Shown here piece after piece: positions 1 to 5,911 of a stretch of DNA of 5,911 nucleotides. Position 1 is the stretch's first letter. The number at the start of each line of letters is the position of its first letter. The stretch is from Hyphomonadaceae bacterium. Its GTDB lineage: Bacteria; Pseudomonadota; Alphaproteobacteria; Caulobacterales; Aquidulcibacteraceae. The position numbers and the translations under genes were made by a program. Below the pieces are notes generated by a model. It was given only the letters and a program-made list of their open reading frames with translations. It had not been told where the DNA came from and did not search any database. The stretch is from assembly GCA_025458365.1 (NCBI GenBank), contig JALOSP010000312.1:1-5911 (forward strand), read 5' to 3'.

Positions 1-461
1 TCTGGCGCATCGGTGCCACGACCGGTCAGGCGCTTTCGCAGCTCGGTCATGGAGGGTGGCAGGATGAAAACCTTGACCACATCGGCCGGCGCAGCCTCTT
101 TCAATTGCTGGGCGCCCTGCCAGTCGATGTCGAACAGCAGATCGCGCCCGGCTTCCAGCGTCGCCATCACCGGGGCGCGCGGGCTGCCGTAATAATGGTC
201 ATGCACTTCGGCCCATTCGAGAAAGCCGGACGTGCCACGCTCGGCCCGGAACTGGTCCTTGTCCACAAACCGGTAATGCACACCGTCGACTTCCCCGACA
301 CGCGGGCCACGGGTCGTCCAGGATACTGAAAAGCTGATTGTCCGGTCGTCTTCCATCAGCCGGCGGGACAGACTGGTCTTGCCGGCACCCGAGGGGCTCA
401 CCACCACCAGCATCATGCCACGGCGGGTTTGCGGAACGGGCACGGACGCATCACTCGGCAT
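1..461 (-). CDS. gmk: Guanylate kinase, N-terminal part (cut by window edge)
   Basis: Guanylate kinase phosphorylates GMP to GDP with ATP in the cytoplasm and is essential for purine nucleotide supply. The 153 visible codons begin MPSDASVPVPQTRRGMM and carry the P-loop SPSGAGKT (residues 22-29). The GMP-binding stretch follows at about 43-65, including SVSWTTRGPRVGE, then YYGSPR (about 90-95) and LFDIDWQGAQQ (about 109-119). The family is usually about 205-215 residues, so roughly the last quarter lies beyond position 1. I chose the ATG at 459-461 because it is in frame, has a GAAGGA motif 11 nt upstream and keeps the RRG that precedes the first beta strand in alphaproteobacterial homologues. 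This start overlaps the end of yicC by 11 nt, which suggests translational coupling. A GTG at 441-443 or the ATG pair at 411-416 are weaker alternatives. Family identity is secure; the start is probable. Confidence 0.93.
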   Translation of the reverse strand, partial: MPSDASVPVPQTRRGMMLVVVSPSGAGKTSLSRRLMEDDRTISFSVSWTTRGPRVGEVDGVHYRFVDKDQFRAERGTSGFLEWAEVHDHYYGSPRAPVMATLEAGRDLLFDIDWQGAQQLKEAAPADVVKVFILPPSMTELRKRLTGRGTDAP

Positions 462-1347
462 TGGCGGCCTGTTCCTTCAACCGGTCGATGGTGGTTTTCA
501 GTTCGATCCCGATCCGCGTCAGGTCCAGTGTGGCAGACTTGGTGGTCAAGGTATTGGCCTCGCGGTGCAGCTCCTGGGCCAGGAAATCCAGCTTGCGGCC
601 AATGGCGCCACCGGCCGCGAGCAGAGCCCGTCCGTCAGCCAGGTGTGCACTCACCCGGTCGAGTTCTTCCTGCACATCGGCCTTCATGGCCAGCATCGCC
701 ACTTCCTGTGCCAGCCGCTGTTCATCGACCAGCGTGCTGCCCAGAAGCTCTGCAGCGCGGCGCGCAACTTTGGTCTGCAGGGCCGCAACCTGTCCACTGG
801 CGGCGATGGTTGCAGCCGCCAGCGCCGTTTCCACCTCGTCAAACAGCCGGGCGAACACTGTGGCCAAGGCCGCCCCTTCAGCGACCCGCGCCGCCTTCAA
901 CTGGTCCAGCACCGTGTCCAGCCCCTGCCGCAAGGCCGCATCGAGGGCCTCGCGCGCATCTTCGGCCACCACGTCATCAGCAATCGTCACCACACCGCGC
1001 ACGGCCAGCAGGCCCGCCCAGTCCGGCGCACGCACCTGACCCGACGCGACGCGGGCAGCCCCAGCCGCCAGGAGCTGATCGACCAGCACCTGATTGACCT
1101 GCAATTCGGGTGCCTCATCGCCTGTGTCGCGCTTGAGCGACAGGCTGACCTGGAACGATCCGCGCGAAAACCTCGCCTTGGCCCCGTCCCGGATCAGCGG
1201 GTCAAGACTGTCCTGTCCTTGTGGCAGACGCACTTTCAAATCCAGCGTGCGCCCGTTGACGCTGCGCGCTTCCCAGACCCAGAGCCACCCGGCCATCGCG
1301 CCTTCACACCGGGCAAAGCCGGTCATCCCGGAGATGGGCACGCTCAT
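451..1347 (-). CDS. yicC: YicC/YloC family endoribonuclease
   Basis: This is a 298-residue member of the YicC/YloC family (E. coli YicC is about 287 residues), cytoplasmic proteins reported to act as endoribonucleases. The N-terminal domain opens with the family signature MTGFAR (residues 8-13), followed by WEARSVNGRTLDLKVRLP, which is typical of the family. The C-terminal DUF1732-type region is equally clear: EVAMLAMKADVQEELDRVSAH, then AIGRKLDFLAQELHREANTL and the ending IELKTTIDRLKEQ. The middle is Ala-rich and predicted helical. No signal peptide or membrane segment is seen. The ATG overlaps the mltG stop as ATGA (4 nt), and the far end overlaps gmk by 11 nt, so it is translated within the same operon. 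Placement next to gmk is a common arrangement for this family. The RNase role rests on family knowledge; the physiological substrate here cannot be read from sequence. Confidence 0.93.
   Translation of the reverse strand: MSVPISGMTGFARCEGAMAGWLWVWEARSVNGRTLDLKVRLPQGQDSLDPLIRDGAKARFSRGSFQVSLSLKRDTGDEAPELQVNQVLVDQLLAAGAARVASGQVRAPDWAGLLAVRGVVTIADDVVAEDAREALDAALRQGLDTVLDQLKAARVAEGAALATVFARLFDEVETALAAATIAASGQVAALQTKVARRAAELLGSTLVDEQRLAQEVAMLAMKADVQEELDRVSAHLADGRALLAAGGAIGRKLDFLAQELHREANTLTTKSATLDLTRIGIELKTTIDRLKEQAANAE
473..478 (-). promoter_or_regulatory. Ribosome binding site for gmk, inside yicC
   Basis: GAAGGA on the minus strand lies 11 nt before the ATG at 459-461. It sits within the last codons of yicC and is the main reason for choosing this gmk start over in-frame starts further downstream, which have no comparable motif. 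The spacing is a little long but usable. Confidence 0.55.
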
Positions 1348-2528
1348 TGCCCGCCGCCGCTGTCACGGCCACCGGCAAGGTCGGCGTCCTTGGCTTCTTG
1401 CCGCGCCCGGAATTCACGCCAGCGCTGCACGTTGCGATTATGCTCGGCATAGGTCTCGGCAAACACATGCCCGCCAGTCCCATCAGCCACAAAGAAGATG
1501 TAGGGGGTGTCAGGCGGGTTGAGCACAGCCTCGATCGATTCACGGCCCGGGTTGGCAATCGGCGTCGGTGGCAGGGCATTGATCACATAAGTGTTCCACG
1601 GGTGCGGCATGCGGATCTCGCTCGCCCTGATGCGGCGCCGCAATGGAACCCCCTTGGTGATGCCATAGATGATCGTCGGATCACTTTGCAGCTTCATGCC
1701 ACGCCGCAGCCGGTTGACGAACACCGAGGCGACCTGAGGCCGCTCGGATGCAATGGCGGTTTCCTTTTCCACGATCGAGGCGAGTATCAGGGCTTCCTGC
1801 GGGGTCCGCAGCGGCAAGTCGGCAGCCCGTCTCAGCCAGGCCTCTGCCAGGAAGTTCTCGCTGGTCGCCACCATCCGCTCGACCATGGCTGCCCGCGTGT
1901 CGCCGCGTTGAAAAGGATATGTGTCTGGCATCATGGTGCCTTCGGCCGGCACCGTAGTCGGCATGGGCCCCTCCAGCAGCGGGTTCTTCTCGATCCGCTC
2001 CATCGCCATGGCAACAGTCCAGCCTTCCGGGATGGTGATCTTGCGCTGGATGCCGCGACCCGTTGTCAGGATGTCGACAATCCGCCCTGGCGAGGCCCCC
2101 GACGGGATTTCGTACTCGCCCGGCTTCAACTCGCCACCCGCGCTGACCGCCTCGATCACCCGGTACACCAACCGCGACCGGACCAAACCCTCCTTGGCCA
2201 GACGCTGGGAGACAGCCGAACTGCCATCGCCGGAACGCACCACAAATGTCGAAGGTTCGCCGGATGCGGTCCGGGGGCCAGAGAAGACGAAAGCGTAGAC
2301 TGTGCCGAGCACGACCAGGACCGCAAGCGCTGCGATCAGCCACAAACCGGCCGTTTCGAGCTTGCGCCGGCGGACTTTTTTGGCACCGCGGATCTTTGCA
2401 ACCGGATCATCAGGGCGGGTGCCGCGCGTGCGCCCCGCAACCGGGGTTGGCACAGGCGGTGGCACGGGCGCTGAAGCCGCGCCATCTGATCGCGGCGCGG
2501 CGGGTTGGCTGTCGATGTCATCGGTCAT
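1344..2528 (-). CDS. mltG: Endolytic murein transglycosylase MltG (YceG family)
   Basis: MltG is an inner-membrane lytic transglycosylase that cleaves nascent glycan strands and is thought to set their length by terminating polymerisation. The 394-residue protein has a Pro/Ala-rich cytoplasmic tail (1-56) ending in the basic stretch KKVRRRK. One membrane helix follows (about 60-83, GLWLIAALAVLVVLGTVYAF), then a periplasmic LysM-like part (about 92-158, with GELKPGEYEIPSG) and the YceG catalytic domain. Key motifs are ITIPEGWT (165-172), MPDTYPF (200-206), SIVEKET with Glu254/Glu256 (251-257), which holds the catalytic Glu of the family, and QSDPTIIYG (281-289). NTYVINALPPTPIANPG and FFVADGTGGHVF complete the domain. 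It is longer than the roughly 340 residues of E. coli MltG, mostly because of the cytoplasmic tail. It starts 6 bp after the fabF stop and overlaps yicC by 4 nt. If fabF translation really stops early, this gene could suffer polarity. Confidence 0.96.
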   Translation of the reverse strand: MTDDIDSQPAAPRSDGAASAPVPPPVPTPVAGRTRGTRPDDPVAKIRGAKKVRRRKLETAGLWLIAALAVLVVLGTVYAFVFSGPRTASGEPSTFVVRSGDGSSAVSQRLAKEGLVRSRLVYRVIEAVSAGGELKPGEYEIPSGASPGRIVDILTTGRGIQRKITIPEGWTVAMAMERIEKNPLLEGPMPTTVPAEGTMMPDTYPFQRGDTRAAMVERMVATSENFLAEAWLRRAADLPLRTPQEALILASIVEKETAIASERPQVASVFVNRLRRGMKLQSDPTIIYGITKGVPLRRRIRASEIRMPHPWNTYVINALPPTPIANPGRESIEAVLNPPDTPYIFFVADGTGGHVFAETYAEHNRNVQRWREFRARQEAKDADLAGGRDSGGGQ

Positions 2529-2534
2529 GATGGC

Positions 2535-3738
2535 CTACACCGCTCGCATCACAAGAGCTGCATTGGTCCCGCCGAAGCCGAACGAGTTGGACATGGCGGC
2601 TATGACCGGCATCGTTTTGCCGATTTTCGCCACCAAATCGATTTTGGTGTCTACAGACGGATGGTCCAGATTGAGCGTCGGTGGCGCTCCGCCATTGGCG
2701 ATGGCCAAGGCCGTGAATGCGGCCTCGACCCCACCCGCCGCACCCAGCAAGTGACCGATGGCAGACTTGGTGGAAGAGACGGTCAATCCGCCGGTGTGCC
2801 CGTCGAACAGCCGCTCGATCGCACGCAACTCGATCTCGTCACCCAGGGGTGTCGAGGTTCCATGGGCGTTGACATAGTGGCGCAGTGATATGGTAAGCAT
2901 CGCCGGACATGCCGTAACCTGCGACTTCGCAATAGATTTTGGCGCCACGTGCCTTCGCATGCTCGTATTCCTCAAGAACGAGCACGCCGGCACCTTCACC
3001 CATGACGAATCCATCGCGGTCCTTGTCATAAGGGCGCGAGGCGGCTTGCGGATTGTCATTGAAGCCACTGGAGAGCGCACGCGCAGCAGCAAAGCCAACC
3101 ATGCCGATCTTGCAGATCGAAGCTTCGCCGCCACCAGCCACCATCACGTCAGCGTCGCCGTATTTGATCATGCGGGCCGCATCGCCGATGGCATGGGCAC
3201 CGGTCGCACATGCCGTAACCACCGAATGATTGGGGCCCTTGAAGCCGTGCTTGATGGAAACATGCCCGGAAATCAGGTTGATCAGGGCCGACGGTACAAA
3301 GAACGGGCTGATCTTGCGCGGCCCTTCCCGCTCAAGCTGCAGCGCCGTGTCAGCAATGGTGGACAGCCCACCGATCCCGGAACCGATCATGACACCGGTG
3401 CGCTCAAGCGAGTCCGGGTCTTCGGGCTTCCAGTTCGCGTCAGCCAGCGCCATATCGGCAGCCGCCACGCCATACAGGATGAAATCATCGACCCGGCGGC
3501 GGTCTCGCGCCGACATGAACAGGTCAGGATCGAATGCGCCCGGCTGGTCTGGTGCGCCGCCACCCTGCCCGGTGACCCAAGGGACCTCGCACGCATAGGT
3601 CACCGACAGGGCCGAAGCATCAAACCGCGTAATGGTCCCGGCCCCATTGGCGCCAGCCATCAGGGCCTGCCAGACAAAATCGGCCCCGACGCCCACAGGG
3701 GTGACGAGGCCGATCCCGGTGACGACGACGCGCCGCAT
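2535..3738 (-). pseudogene. fabF: Beta-ketoacyl-ACP synthase II, broken by a deletion and frameshift
   Basis: Intact FabF condenses malonyl-ACP with acyl-ACP to elongate fatty acids by two carbons. Translation starts MRRVVVTGIGLVTPVG at 3738, with a weak ribosome site, 5 bp after acpP. The frame stays conserved through residue 287 (AYHITAP), including the catalytic Cys177 in VTACATGAH. It then runs into 12 unrelated residues and a TGA at 2841-2839. The rest of the protein resumes in another frame from position 2876 (YVNAHGTSTPLGDE) to a TAG at 2535. That part holds the catalytic His of NAHGTST (codon 2864-2862), Lys and His of TKSAIGHLLGAAG (His codon 2753-2751) and NSFGFGGTN. Against E. coli FabF from memory, 26 residues should lie between the two parts and only one base does, implying about 77 bp lost. 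The joined parts make 400 residues; restored length would be about 426. The 299-residue product lacks both catalytic His residues and should be inactive. A sequence or assembly error is a strong alternative to a true pseudogene. Confidence 0.9.
2874..2880 (-). other. Deletion and frameshift junction in fabF
   Basis: The codon CCA (2880-2878) ends the conserved first part of fabF, and the codon TAT (2876-2874) opens the conserved second part. The single base at 2877 is all that remains between them. The lost stretch matches the segment between the AYHxTxP motif and the YVNAHGTSTP motif of the family. No slippery heptamer is visible, and frameshifting could not restore the missing residues anyway. 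Confidence 0.88.
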
Positions 3739-3743
3739 GCTGG

Positions 3744-3983
3744 TCAGCCGGCAGCGTTCGCGTCGATGAAGCTGACCGCATCACCCACGGTCTGGATCTT
3801 TTCGGCGGCATCGTCCGGGATTTCGACACCGAACTCTTCTTCGAATGCCATCACCAGTTCGACCGTATCAAGGCTGTCAGCGCCCAGATCATCGATGAAG
3901 CTGGCACCGGCCACAACCTTGTCCGCGTCGGCGCTGAGGTGGTCGATGACGATCTTCTTTACCCGTTCAAACGTGTCCGACAT
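3744..3983 (-). CDS. acpP: Acyl carrier protein
   Basis: AcpP is the small acidic cytoplasmic protein that carries growing acyl chains on a 4'-phosphopantetheine arm and hands them between the Fab enzymes. It also supplies acyl groups for phospholipid and lipid A synthesis. The 79-residue product matches the family in length (77-80). Ser37 in the motif [10 protein letters not shown] is the attachment site for the arm. Helix II with [18 protein letters not shown] follows, rich in the Glu/Asp residues that contact partner enzymes. I chose the ATG at 3981-3983 because it gives the usual start [10 protein letters not shown] and has GGGGA 7 nt upstream. A longer in-frame start at 4064 would add an unrelated 27-residue extension. 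fabF follows after 5 bp. The 184-bp gap upstream suggests that acpP can be transcribed separately from fabDG, which would suit its need for high expression. Confidence 0.98.
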
Positions 3984-3990
3984 GGAAATG

Positions 3991-3995
3991 TCCCC
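3991..3995 (-). promoter_or_regulatory. Ribosome binding site of acpP
   Basis: GGGGA on the minus strand lies 7 nt before the acpP ATG. It fixes the start at 3983. It overlaps the proximal copy of a 10-bp direct repeat (3993-4002), and a small hairpin begins six bases further upstream, so access to it could be controlled. Confidence 0.6.
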
Positions 3996-4002
3996 GGTTG
4001 AT
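3993..4002 (-). repeat. Direct repeat, proximal copy, at the acpP ribosome site
   Basis: The minus-strand sequence ATCAACCGGG occurs here and, perfectly, at 4030-4039, with starts 37 bp apart. This copy overlaps the acpP ribosome binding site. Two perfect 10-mers in a 184-bp gap are unlikely by chance but not extraordinary. A protein binding site is possible; no known operator is recognised. Confidence 0.5.
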
Positions 4003-4019
4003 TGGGGCCGCGACCCAAT
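4001..4019 (-). other. Small hairpin in the acpP leader
   Basis: An inverted repeat ATTGGG/CCCAAT (4001-4006 and 4014-4019) with a 7-nt loop would form a 6-bp stem in the acpP leader RNA. It sits immediately upstream of the ribosome binding site. It has no U-tract, so it is not a terminator. It might tune translation or mRNA stability, but it could also be chance. Confidence 0.35.
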
Positions 4020-4029
4020 TGGTCGGTAG

Positions 4030-4039
4030 CCCGGTTGAT
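4030..4039 (-). repeat. Direct repeat, distal copy, in the acpP leader
   Basis: This is the second perfect copy of ATCAACCGGG, on the same strand as the copy at 3993-4002. It lies in the middle of the gap between fabG and acpP, downstream of the promoter candidate at 4095-4123. Confidence 0.5.
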
Positions 4040-4094
4040 ACAGTTTCGTGCAATCGGGCCCCATCCGGGATGCACGCTTTGCAGACGAAGGCGC

Positions 4095-4123
4095 CGATTA
4101 GCCCAAGTGGCAGCAAACTCCAA
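4095..4123 (-). promoter_or_regulatory. Candidate promoter for acpP
   Basis: The minus strand reads TTGGAG (4123-4118), a 15-bp spacer, then GCTAAT (4102-4097). This resembles the housekeeping promoter form of Caulobacter-like bacteria (TTGaCgS, N10-14, GCtANAWC), though the downstream half of the -10 matches poorly. Transcription would begin near 4090, leaving a leader of about 105 nt. An alternative pair, TTGCAC (4053-4048) with GCTACC (4030-4025) at 17 bp, is also possible. The location after a hairpin and before a gene needing high expression supports some promoter here; the exact one is uncertain. Confidence 0.28.
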
Positions 4124-4132
4124 ACACGGACA

Positions 4133-4160
4133 ACAGAAACCACCGCTGTGGCCTTCCTGT
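4133..4160 (-). terminator. Hairpin just after fabG, possible weak terminator
   Basis: Seven nucleotides beyond the fabG stop, the minus strand can fold as ACAGGAA (4160-4154) with TTTCTGT (4139-4133), containing one G-U pair. After a 2-nt bulge, an inner stem CCAC/GTGG closes a 4-nt loop. The following sequence is fairly T-rich but has no run of four or more T, so termination would be partial at best. It may instead mark an RNA processing or 3' stabilising structure that separates fabDG from acpP levels. Confidence 0.35.
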
Positions 4161-4167
4161 CCGAGTT

Positions 4168-4902
4168 TCAGATCATGGCCATGCCACCATTCACGTGCAG
4201 CGTCTGGCCGGTGACATAGGCTGCAGCATCGCTGGCCAGATAGACAACGGCAGCGGCAATCTCCTCGGGCTGCCCGAGCCGTCCTGCCGGGATCTTCGCC
4301 ATGATTGTTTGTTTCTGGGCGTCGTTCAGCACATCGGTCATCGGTGATGCGATGAACCCGGGAGCCACACAATTGGCGGTCACACCGCGTGAGCCGACTT
4401 CCTGGGCCAGAGACTTGGTGAAACCGATCATTCCGGCCTTCGATGCCGCGTAGTTCGCCTGGCCCGGATTGCCTGTCACGCCGACGACCGACGTGATGCC
4501 GATGATCCGGCCCGCGCGGCGCTTCATCATGCCTTTCAGTGCCGCGCGCGACATCCGGAAATAGGCGCCGAGGTTCACGTCCAGCACGGATTGGAAGTCT
4601 TCATCCTTCATCCGCAGCAACAAGCCGTCTTTCGTGATGCCTGCATTGGCCACGAGAATGTCCAGCCCGTCCATGGCCTCTTCTGCCCGCCCGACAAGCC
4701 CGTCGGCCTGGACCGTGTCGGACAGGTTGCAAACCAGCGGCACCGATCCGGGCAGCCCCGCGCAGACTTCGGCCAGCACGGCTTCGCGCGTGCCAGACAG
4801 CGCAACCGTTGCACCGGCATCGCACAAGGCCTGGGCGATGGCCCTGCCGATCCCGCCTGTGGCGCCGGTCACGAGGGCTTTCTTGCCTGCAAGAGAAAAC
4901 AT
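4168..4902 (-). CDS. fabG: 3-oxoacyl-ACP reductase FabG
   Basis: FabG reduces beta-ketoacyl-ACP to beta-hydroxyacyl-ACP with NADPH, the first reduction in each fatty-acid elongation cycle. It acts as a cytoplasmic homotetramer. The 244-residue product has exactly the length of E. coli FabG and is a classical short-chain dehydrogenase. The nucleotide-binding TGATGGIG is at residues 12-19 and the NAG motif at 86-88. The catalytic tetrad is Asn110, Ser138 (GITSVVG), Tyr151 and Lys155 (YAASK). The C-terminus VNGGMAMI is typical of the enzyme. The fatty-acid role, rather than another short-chain dehydrogenase, is supported by the position between fabD and acpP. The ATG at 4902 has AGGA 7 nt upstream, and the gap to fabD is 15 bp, so the two are surely co-transcribed. 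Nothing in it looks damaged. Confidence 0.98.
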   Translation of the reverse strand: MFSLAGKKALVTGATGGIGRAIAQALCDAGATVALSGTREAVLAEVCAGLPGSVPLVCNLSDTVQADGLVGRAEEAMDGLDILVANAGITKDGLLLRMKDEDFQSVLDVNLGAYFRMSRAALKGMMKRRAGRIIGITSVVGVTGNPGQANYAASKAGMIGFTKSLAQEVGSRGVTANCVAPGFIASPMTDVLNDAQKQTIMAKIPAGRLGQPEEIAAAVVYLASDAAAYVTGQTLHVNGGMAMI

Positions 4903-4909
4903 CAGCCGA

Positions 4910-4913
4910 TCCT
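4910..4913 (-). promoter_or_regulatory. Ribosome binding site of fabG
   Basis: AGGA on the minus strand, 7 nt before the fabG ATG, lies in the 15-bp gap after the fabD stop codon. It supports the start at 4902. Confidence 0.55.
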
Positions 4914-4917
4914 GTGG

Positions 4918-5856
4918 TTAGAGGGTATCGAGAAACAGGCGCATCGAGGCGCTGTCATTGATCGCATGGCTCTGGGCGTCTGGCGCGATCCGCTTCGACA
5001 TCCCGGTCAACACTGATCCTGCCCCGATTTCCACAAACCGCGTGGCGCCATCCGAGGCAAGCTTCACAATCGATTCGCGCCACCGCACCCGGCCTGTCAC
5101 CTGCTCGACAAGGAGTTCGCGGATGCGATCAGGGTCGGTCTCGGGGGTCACGGTCACATTGCACAAGACAGGCACGACCGGAGCAAGCAGGGTCACCGAA
5201 GCGAGCGCAGCGGCCATCTCGGCGGCTGCAGGCGCCATCAGTGGACAGTGGAACGGCGCAGACACCGCAAGCGGGATTGCGCGGGCACCCATCGCCTTGG
5301 CAGCTTCGATCGCCGCGGCAACGGCACCAGCCTCGCCCGAAATCACGACATTGCCTGCGTTGTTGTCGTTAGCGACCACACACATGCCAACCTTCGCGCC
5401 TTCGGCAGCCGCTGCCTCAGCCAGTGCCAGATCGACCTTGGGACCAATCAGCGAGGCCATGGCGCCAGCACCAGGTGGAACCGCACGCTGCATGGCCTGT
5501 CCGCGCAGTTTCAGCAGCCGCGCCGAATCAGCAAGCGACAGGGCGCCAGCAGCTGTCAGTGCCGAATACTCTCCCAGCGAGTGGCCGCACACCAGGGCGG
5601 CCCGATCCACGCCGACACCGAACTCGGCTTCCAGAACGCGAACCACCGCAAGCGAAACCGCCATCAGCGCTGGCTGTGCATTTTCAGTCAGGGTCAAAGC
5701 CTCAAGCGGTCCAGCGCGCATCAAGTCTGACAGGTTCTGGCCCAGGGCTTCGTCGACCTCTGCAAACACGGCGCGGGCCACAGCAAACTCATCAGCCAGA
5801 CCGACACCCATGCCTACCGCCTGGCTGCCCTGACCGGGAAACTGGAAAATCATCAT
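4918..5856 (-). CDS. fabD: Malonyl-CoA:ACP transacylase FabD
   Basis: FabD moves the malonyl group from CoA to the AcpP arm, providing the extender unit for fatty-acid elongation. From the ATG pair at 5856-5851 the protein has 312 residues, against 309 in E. coli. It opens with FPGQGSQAVGMG (about 6-17, oxyanion-hole Gln9). The nucleophile Ser93 lies in GHSLGEYSAL, Arg118 in LRGQAMQ binds the malonyl carboxylate, and the catalytic His203 lies in SAPFHCPLM. Gln252 in EQVTGRVRW and the terminal EIGAGSVLTGM are also as in the family. The frame stays open to another ATG at 5910 and perhaps beyond the window. The 18 extra residues there are basic, Pro-containing and unlike the usual FabD N-terminus, so I prefer the ATG pair. 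No Shine-Dalgarno motif precedes it; a promoter-like element directly upstream may explain this through a nearly leaderless mRNA. Confidence 0.96.
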   Translation of the reverse strand: MMIFQFPGQGSQAVGMGVGLADEFAVARAVFAEVDEALGQNLSDLMRAGPLEALTLTENAQPALMAVSLAVVRVLEAEFGVGVDRAALVCGHSLGEYSALTAAGALSLADSARLLKLRGQAMQRAVPPGAGAMASLIGPKVDLALAEAAAAEGAKVGMCVVANDNNAGNVVISGEAGAVAAAIEAAKAMGARAIPLAVSAPFHCPLMAPAAAEMAAALASVTLLAPVVPVLCNVTVTPETDPDRIRELLVEQVTGRVRWRESIVKLASDGATRFVEIGAGSVLTGMSKRIAPDAQSHAINDSASMRLFLDTL

Positions 5857-5863
5857 GCTGCGC

Positions 5864-5892
5864 GGGTTAGCCGGGCGGACGCCTTTGGGCAA
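5864..5892 (-). promoter_or_regulatory. Candidate promoter for the fab cluster, directly before fabD
   Basis: The minus strand reads TTGCCC (5892-5887), a 15-bp spacer, then GCTAACCC (5871-5864). This resembles the Caulobacter-type housekeeping promoter (TTGaCgS, N10-14, GCtANAWC). The start of transcription would fall around 5859, only a few bases before the fabD ATG pair, so the mRNA would be nearly leaderless. The same spacing is seen in the acpP candidate. This is inference from a short motif; the true promoter could lie beyond the window edge. Confidence 0.3.
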
Positions 5893-5911
5893 GGCGCGTC
5901 GGGTCGTCATG

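Follow-up and report, generated by a model that had tools for sequence, protein, structure and literature searches.

Loss of the elongating ketosynthase FabF (beta-ketoacyl-ACP synthase II) by deletion has described precedents: PMC3896788 reports that deletion of fabF in E. coli yields a temperature-sensitive mutant, and PMC8319022 describes a fabF1 deletion strain of Pseudomonas putida that was obtained with loss of nearly all its cis-vaccenic acid. A second set of described cases concerns metagenome assemblies, for which PMC7111523 documents errors of local assembly as well as sequence duplicated where scaffolds were joined. The locus set here against both is a broken fabF in a Hyphomonadaceae bacterium draft genome (GCA_025458365.1), whose gap is very probably a scar from the post-assembly joining of two shorter contigs, with an intact fabF probably still present in the organism. 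The grounds observed for this reading are a shortfall of 77 bp in the gene, the lack of decay around it, and differing indels in three other contigs that, like this one, fall out of the length order of the draft.

The window analyzed is the whole of contig JALOSP010000312.1 (positions 1–5,911; hereafter C14), a 5911-bp component of a 2.18-Mb draft that is divided into 421 contigs and is 63.9% complete. Its minus strand carries fabD, fabG, acpP, fabF, mltG, a yicC-like gene and one more gene, truncated at the contig edge, which we take to be gmk. The five genes neighbouring fabF that were compared with NCBIfam models each match as whole genes, including acpP (3744–3983, minus strand) and fabG (4168–4902, minus strand), for which the whole model was matched, and fabD (4918–5871, minus strand), which matches TIGR00128 nearly throughout (positions 2–289 of 290). 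A two-frame tblastn match was also recorded on the plus strand of the window (4568–5565), opposite fabG and fabD.

Amid this neighbourhood of acpP, fabG, fabD and mltG, fabF is split over two reading frames. Its 5′ part (2878–3738, minus strand) consists of 287 in-frame codons that include Cys177 and end in the motif HITAP, the last native codon being a Pro CCA at 2880–2878. This is followed by one stray base, a C on the minus strand at 2877, after which FabF resumes in a different frame with a Tyr codon (TAT, 2876–2874) at the start of YVNAHGTST, so that the junction itself occupies 2876–2878. The 3′ part (2535–2876, minus strand) then runs for 113 residues to a stop. In the first frame translation continues out of frame for 12 residues to a stop that ends at 2839 (2839–2877, minus strand), giving a product of 299 residues. 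The original prediction, which placed the last intact motif, the stray base and the stop at these same positions, proved right to the base. It had also stated that the surviving frame retains Cys177 but neither His, and indeed the His codons of HGTST (2864–2862) and GHLLG (2753–2751), which we take to be the catalytic His residues of FabF, both lie past the break in the other frame. A functional KAS II would hold the Cys and both His residues in a single frame, whereas here Cys177 is found in one frame and the two His codons in another. Pfam and NCBIfam comparisons place the N-terminal ketosynthase part and the C-terminal part in separate frames; the two halves match successive regions of the FabF models (TIGR03150 and NF005589), but the gene is 77 bp short and its halves are in different frames. 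Chance is ruled out as the source of this observation.

The missing length is well defined by comparison with relatives. The motifs flanking the break are separated by 26 residues in 109 of 109 related fabF loci (L009–L117), a set to which the genome_contigs collection contributed 80 loci (the best among 589 confirmed) and the same family 29, cut from 29 of 59 relatives, with 108 of the 109 assessed in one common comparison and the partial L059 separately. The same spacing was found in 10 of 10 protein homologues. Since 78 nt are expected and one is present, 77 bp are missing from the C14 gene, in accord with the 26 residues and approximately 77 bp that had been proposed from comparison with E. 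coli FabF. The suggested alignment with related fabF genes was thus carried out, and not one of the 109 loci naturally lacks the segment, so that a deletion shared with relatives was not encountered. This constancy bears on the notion that the break is bridged by programmed frameshifting to give a shortened but functional FabF. Both frames are well conserved around the break, a point in its favour, but a change of frame would not restore 26 residues that are constant in 109/109 loci, and this explanation appears extremely improbable.

The sequence on both sides of the break is equally well preserved. Identity to the closest homologue, P0002, is 88.2% before the break and 87.4% after it, so that the 3′ part of the gene has not decayed, bearing out the earlier observation of flanks without decay. 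No intact fabF allele of the same population was found when pieces of fabF served as queries in two protein searches, the best 120 matches of each consisting of C14 itself followed by homologues at 88% identity or less. In a separate observation, the 391-residue database protein P0062 contains a ketosynthase stretch ending in a GDAYHITAP-like motif twice in tandem, perhaps another assembly or chimeric fault.

Conservation of the flanks also suits a real and very recent event, in which a 77-bp deletion inactivated fabF in the strain or in a subpopulation and the FabB encoded beside fabA carries elongation. An intact fabA–fabB pair is present in the draft, on contig C312, and the E. coli and P. 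putida fabF mutants offer a precedent for elongation by FabB. Against this stand the presence of the segment in all 109 related loci and the concentration of indels in out-of-order contigs described below; in addition, no direct repeat of 8–14 bp was found between the approximately 80 retained bases on each side of the break, a weak point, since the comparison covers retained sequence and not the lost segment. A real deletion is accordingly judged unlikely.

The FabB on which such a loss would depend was sought, as had been proposed, by searching the draft for FabF and FabB genes. The fabB adjoining fabA on C312 is intact, and its product scores 674.6 against the NCBIfam equivalog model for beta-ketoacyl-ACP synthase I (NF005935; cut-off 630), so that it could in principle carry elongation. 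It is approximately 41% identical to the C14 FabF and represents a separate paralogue of a kind present in most relatives. Besides FabB and the broken fabF, the only further ketosynthase signal found in the draft was a 32-position match to PF00109 on C390. Of the 59 relatives from the family that were searched, 55 gave two or more matches of ketosynthase type (56 of 60 genomes with this draft counted). Second copies are therefore ordinary among relatives, and the presence of FabB is no evidence for a real loss of fabF. Thus, the expectation that another elongating ketosynthase must exist was borne out by the FabB gene, but it lends no argument to the loss itself. A FabF-like match was found in 58 of the 59 relatives, those of G053 and G058 being partial; the exception, G037 (57% complete), has a FabB-like match at 41% and no FabF-like one. 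Given FabB, a cell would plausibly survive without FabF. Should the deletion be true, FabB alone would carry elongation in a lineage where nearly every relative has a FabF-like match. It seems unlikely that the acpP-linked FabF of a free-living alphaproteobacterium was only just lost through a deletion of 77 bp, with fatty acid synthesis now left to FabB alone.

A different origin of the gap is suggested by the order of contigs in the draft. The contigs sampled (those of 80 loci, and C14, 81 in all, of which six read as N and 75 are readable) run in order of falling length, with exceptions. C14 is one of these, its 5911 bp standing between the 3135 bp of C13 and the 3104 bp of C15. When the longest series of descending lengths is taken as the reference, 19 of the 81 contigs are out of order, including C14 and none of the six that read as N. 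Seven long members of this class (C4, C7, C8, C17, C35, C306 and C405, from 11.1 to 15.4 kb), which were covered by frame scan alone, may owe their order just to sorting by name, although this is a guess. A same-strand scan for frame switches, conducted with contig order ignored, returned 15 candidates in 380,029 bp of the draft and, for the complete relative G005, four in 400,000 bp (20 pieces). Gene breaks account for four of these candidates (on C14, C303, C153 and C250), and the remaining 11 were judged by eye alone to be ordinary neighbouring or overlapping genes. Frame-breaking indels therefore affect 4 of 19 out-of-order contigs vs. 0 of 56 in-order contigs (one-sided Fisher p = 0.003), in a comparison that is not fully blind, since the out-of-order class was spotted before all breaks had been classified and the C303 and C250 breaks were first seen during inspection of its members.

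The three additional breaks differ from that of fabF and from one another. In C303 (L221) a prephenate dehydratase gene (PF00800) is lengthened by 43 bp through a perfect 43-bp tandem duplication that begins at 700 and spans 700–786, likely another join scar; the second piece of this gene has no Pfam match, and continuity across the duplication was read by eye. In C153 (L251) PF01494 is split over two frames at 1993–1996 in a gene for a UbiH-like FAD enzyme that is 56–59 bp short, as estimated from seven of the 16 UbiH loci retrieved, and this too is likely a scar. In C250 (L253) PF03007 is split over two frames at approximately 5060–5080 in a wax-ester synthase/DGAT (WS/DGAT) gene, whose shortfall of 116–149 bp was estimated from 4 of 120 proteins among the matches listed and amounts to 149 bp relative to the 95% identical homologue P0121. 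The tblastn reference comparison afforded a small coverage, its matches of at least 40% identity spanning 63,686 bp. A frame-switch match that it returned in L246 was judged to be an antisense match and set aside, and a weak two-frame match (25% and 29% identity) was recorded in L248 (C150, 5715–6865).

The fabF gap interrupts a conserved gene without decay on either side, and similar interruptions recur, in a comparison not fully blind, in unrelated genes on contigs that share the order anomaly. The original prediction had left the choice between a very recent event and a sequence error; of the two, error is favoured, because breaks of this kind also disrupt unrelated conserved genes on other out-of-order contigs of the draft and because none of the 109 related loci is without the segment, while the side of recent loss gained no favour. 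In the mechanism that we envisage, the out-of-order contigs would have been edited or merged after numbering, mostly by joining, the join on C14 would have dropped real sequence, and fabF would be whole in the living cell. Alternatively, the junction could derive from a chimeric molecule formed in amplification or library preparation and faithfully assembled, rather than from a post-assembly join. The fragmented state and 63.9% completeness of the draft, as well as the varying scar sizes, are compatible with such an origin, but the scars sit in contigs that are off length order, which argues for editing after numbering and renders a chimeric molecule highly improbable.

If post-assembly joining is the cause, the breaks may be expected near the original contig ends predicted from rank. 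In C14, 3034 bp lie between the junction and the end of the contig, and with the 77 missing bp added the figure is 3111, which falls within the 3104–3135 bracket, a suggestive fit that was spotted after the fact. In C303 the distance from the second copy to the contig end is 4268, 54–60 bp under its bracket of 4322–4328, and a break near the rank-predicted original end is likewise suggestive. No scar was found at the rank-predicted place in eight out-of-order contigs (C12, C23, C29, C302, C305, C309, C310 and C403), for which translations were read by eye in some cases and frame scan or reference coverage alone was used in others, some of these places being intergenic and thus not open to judgement. 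In C153 the anomaly runs the other way, the contig being shorter than those beside it in the order, so that simple joining fails to explain it. A widely used assembler also has 77 as its top k-mer; a fixed 77-bp overlap or double trimming of a k-mer was considered and rejected, given that the other indels measure +43, −56 to −59 and −116 to −149 bp. No exact suffix–prefix overlap longer than 12 bp was found at the ends of the 75 readable contigs, and the assembler's k is consequently not readable from them.

The biology behind the C14 fabF break is thus most likely ordinary. Nothing was found in favour of a real loss of fabF, although such a loss could be survivable given the fabA–fabB pair. 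As an artefact, the break is one of four or more indels that disrupt genes in the 75 contigs read, and gene losses called from this draft and others like it need read support first. Compared with described systems, the C14 gap resembles the cases in PMC7111523, in that faults at joins result in incomplete or incorrect protein-coding genes, duplicated sequence included, within a fragmented draft. It differs from the cases covered there in that the proposed C14 scar is deduced from contig order and homology only.
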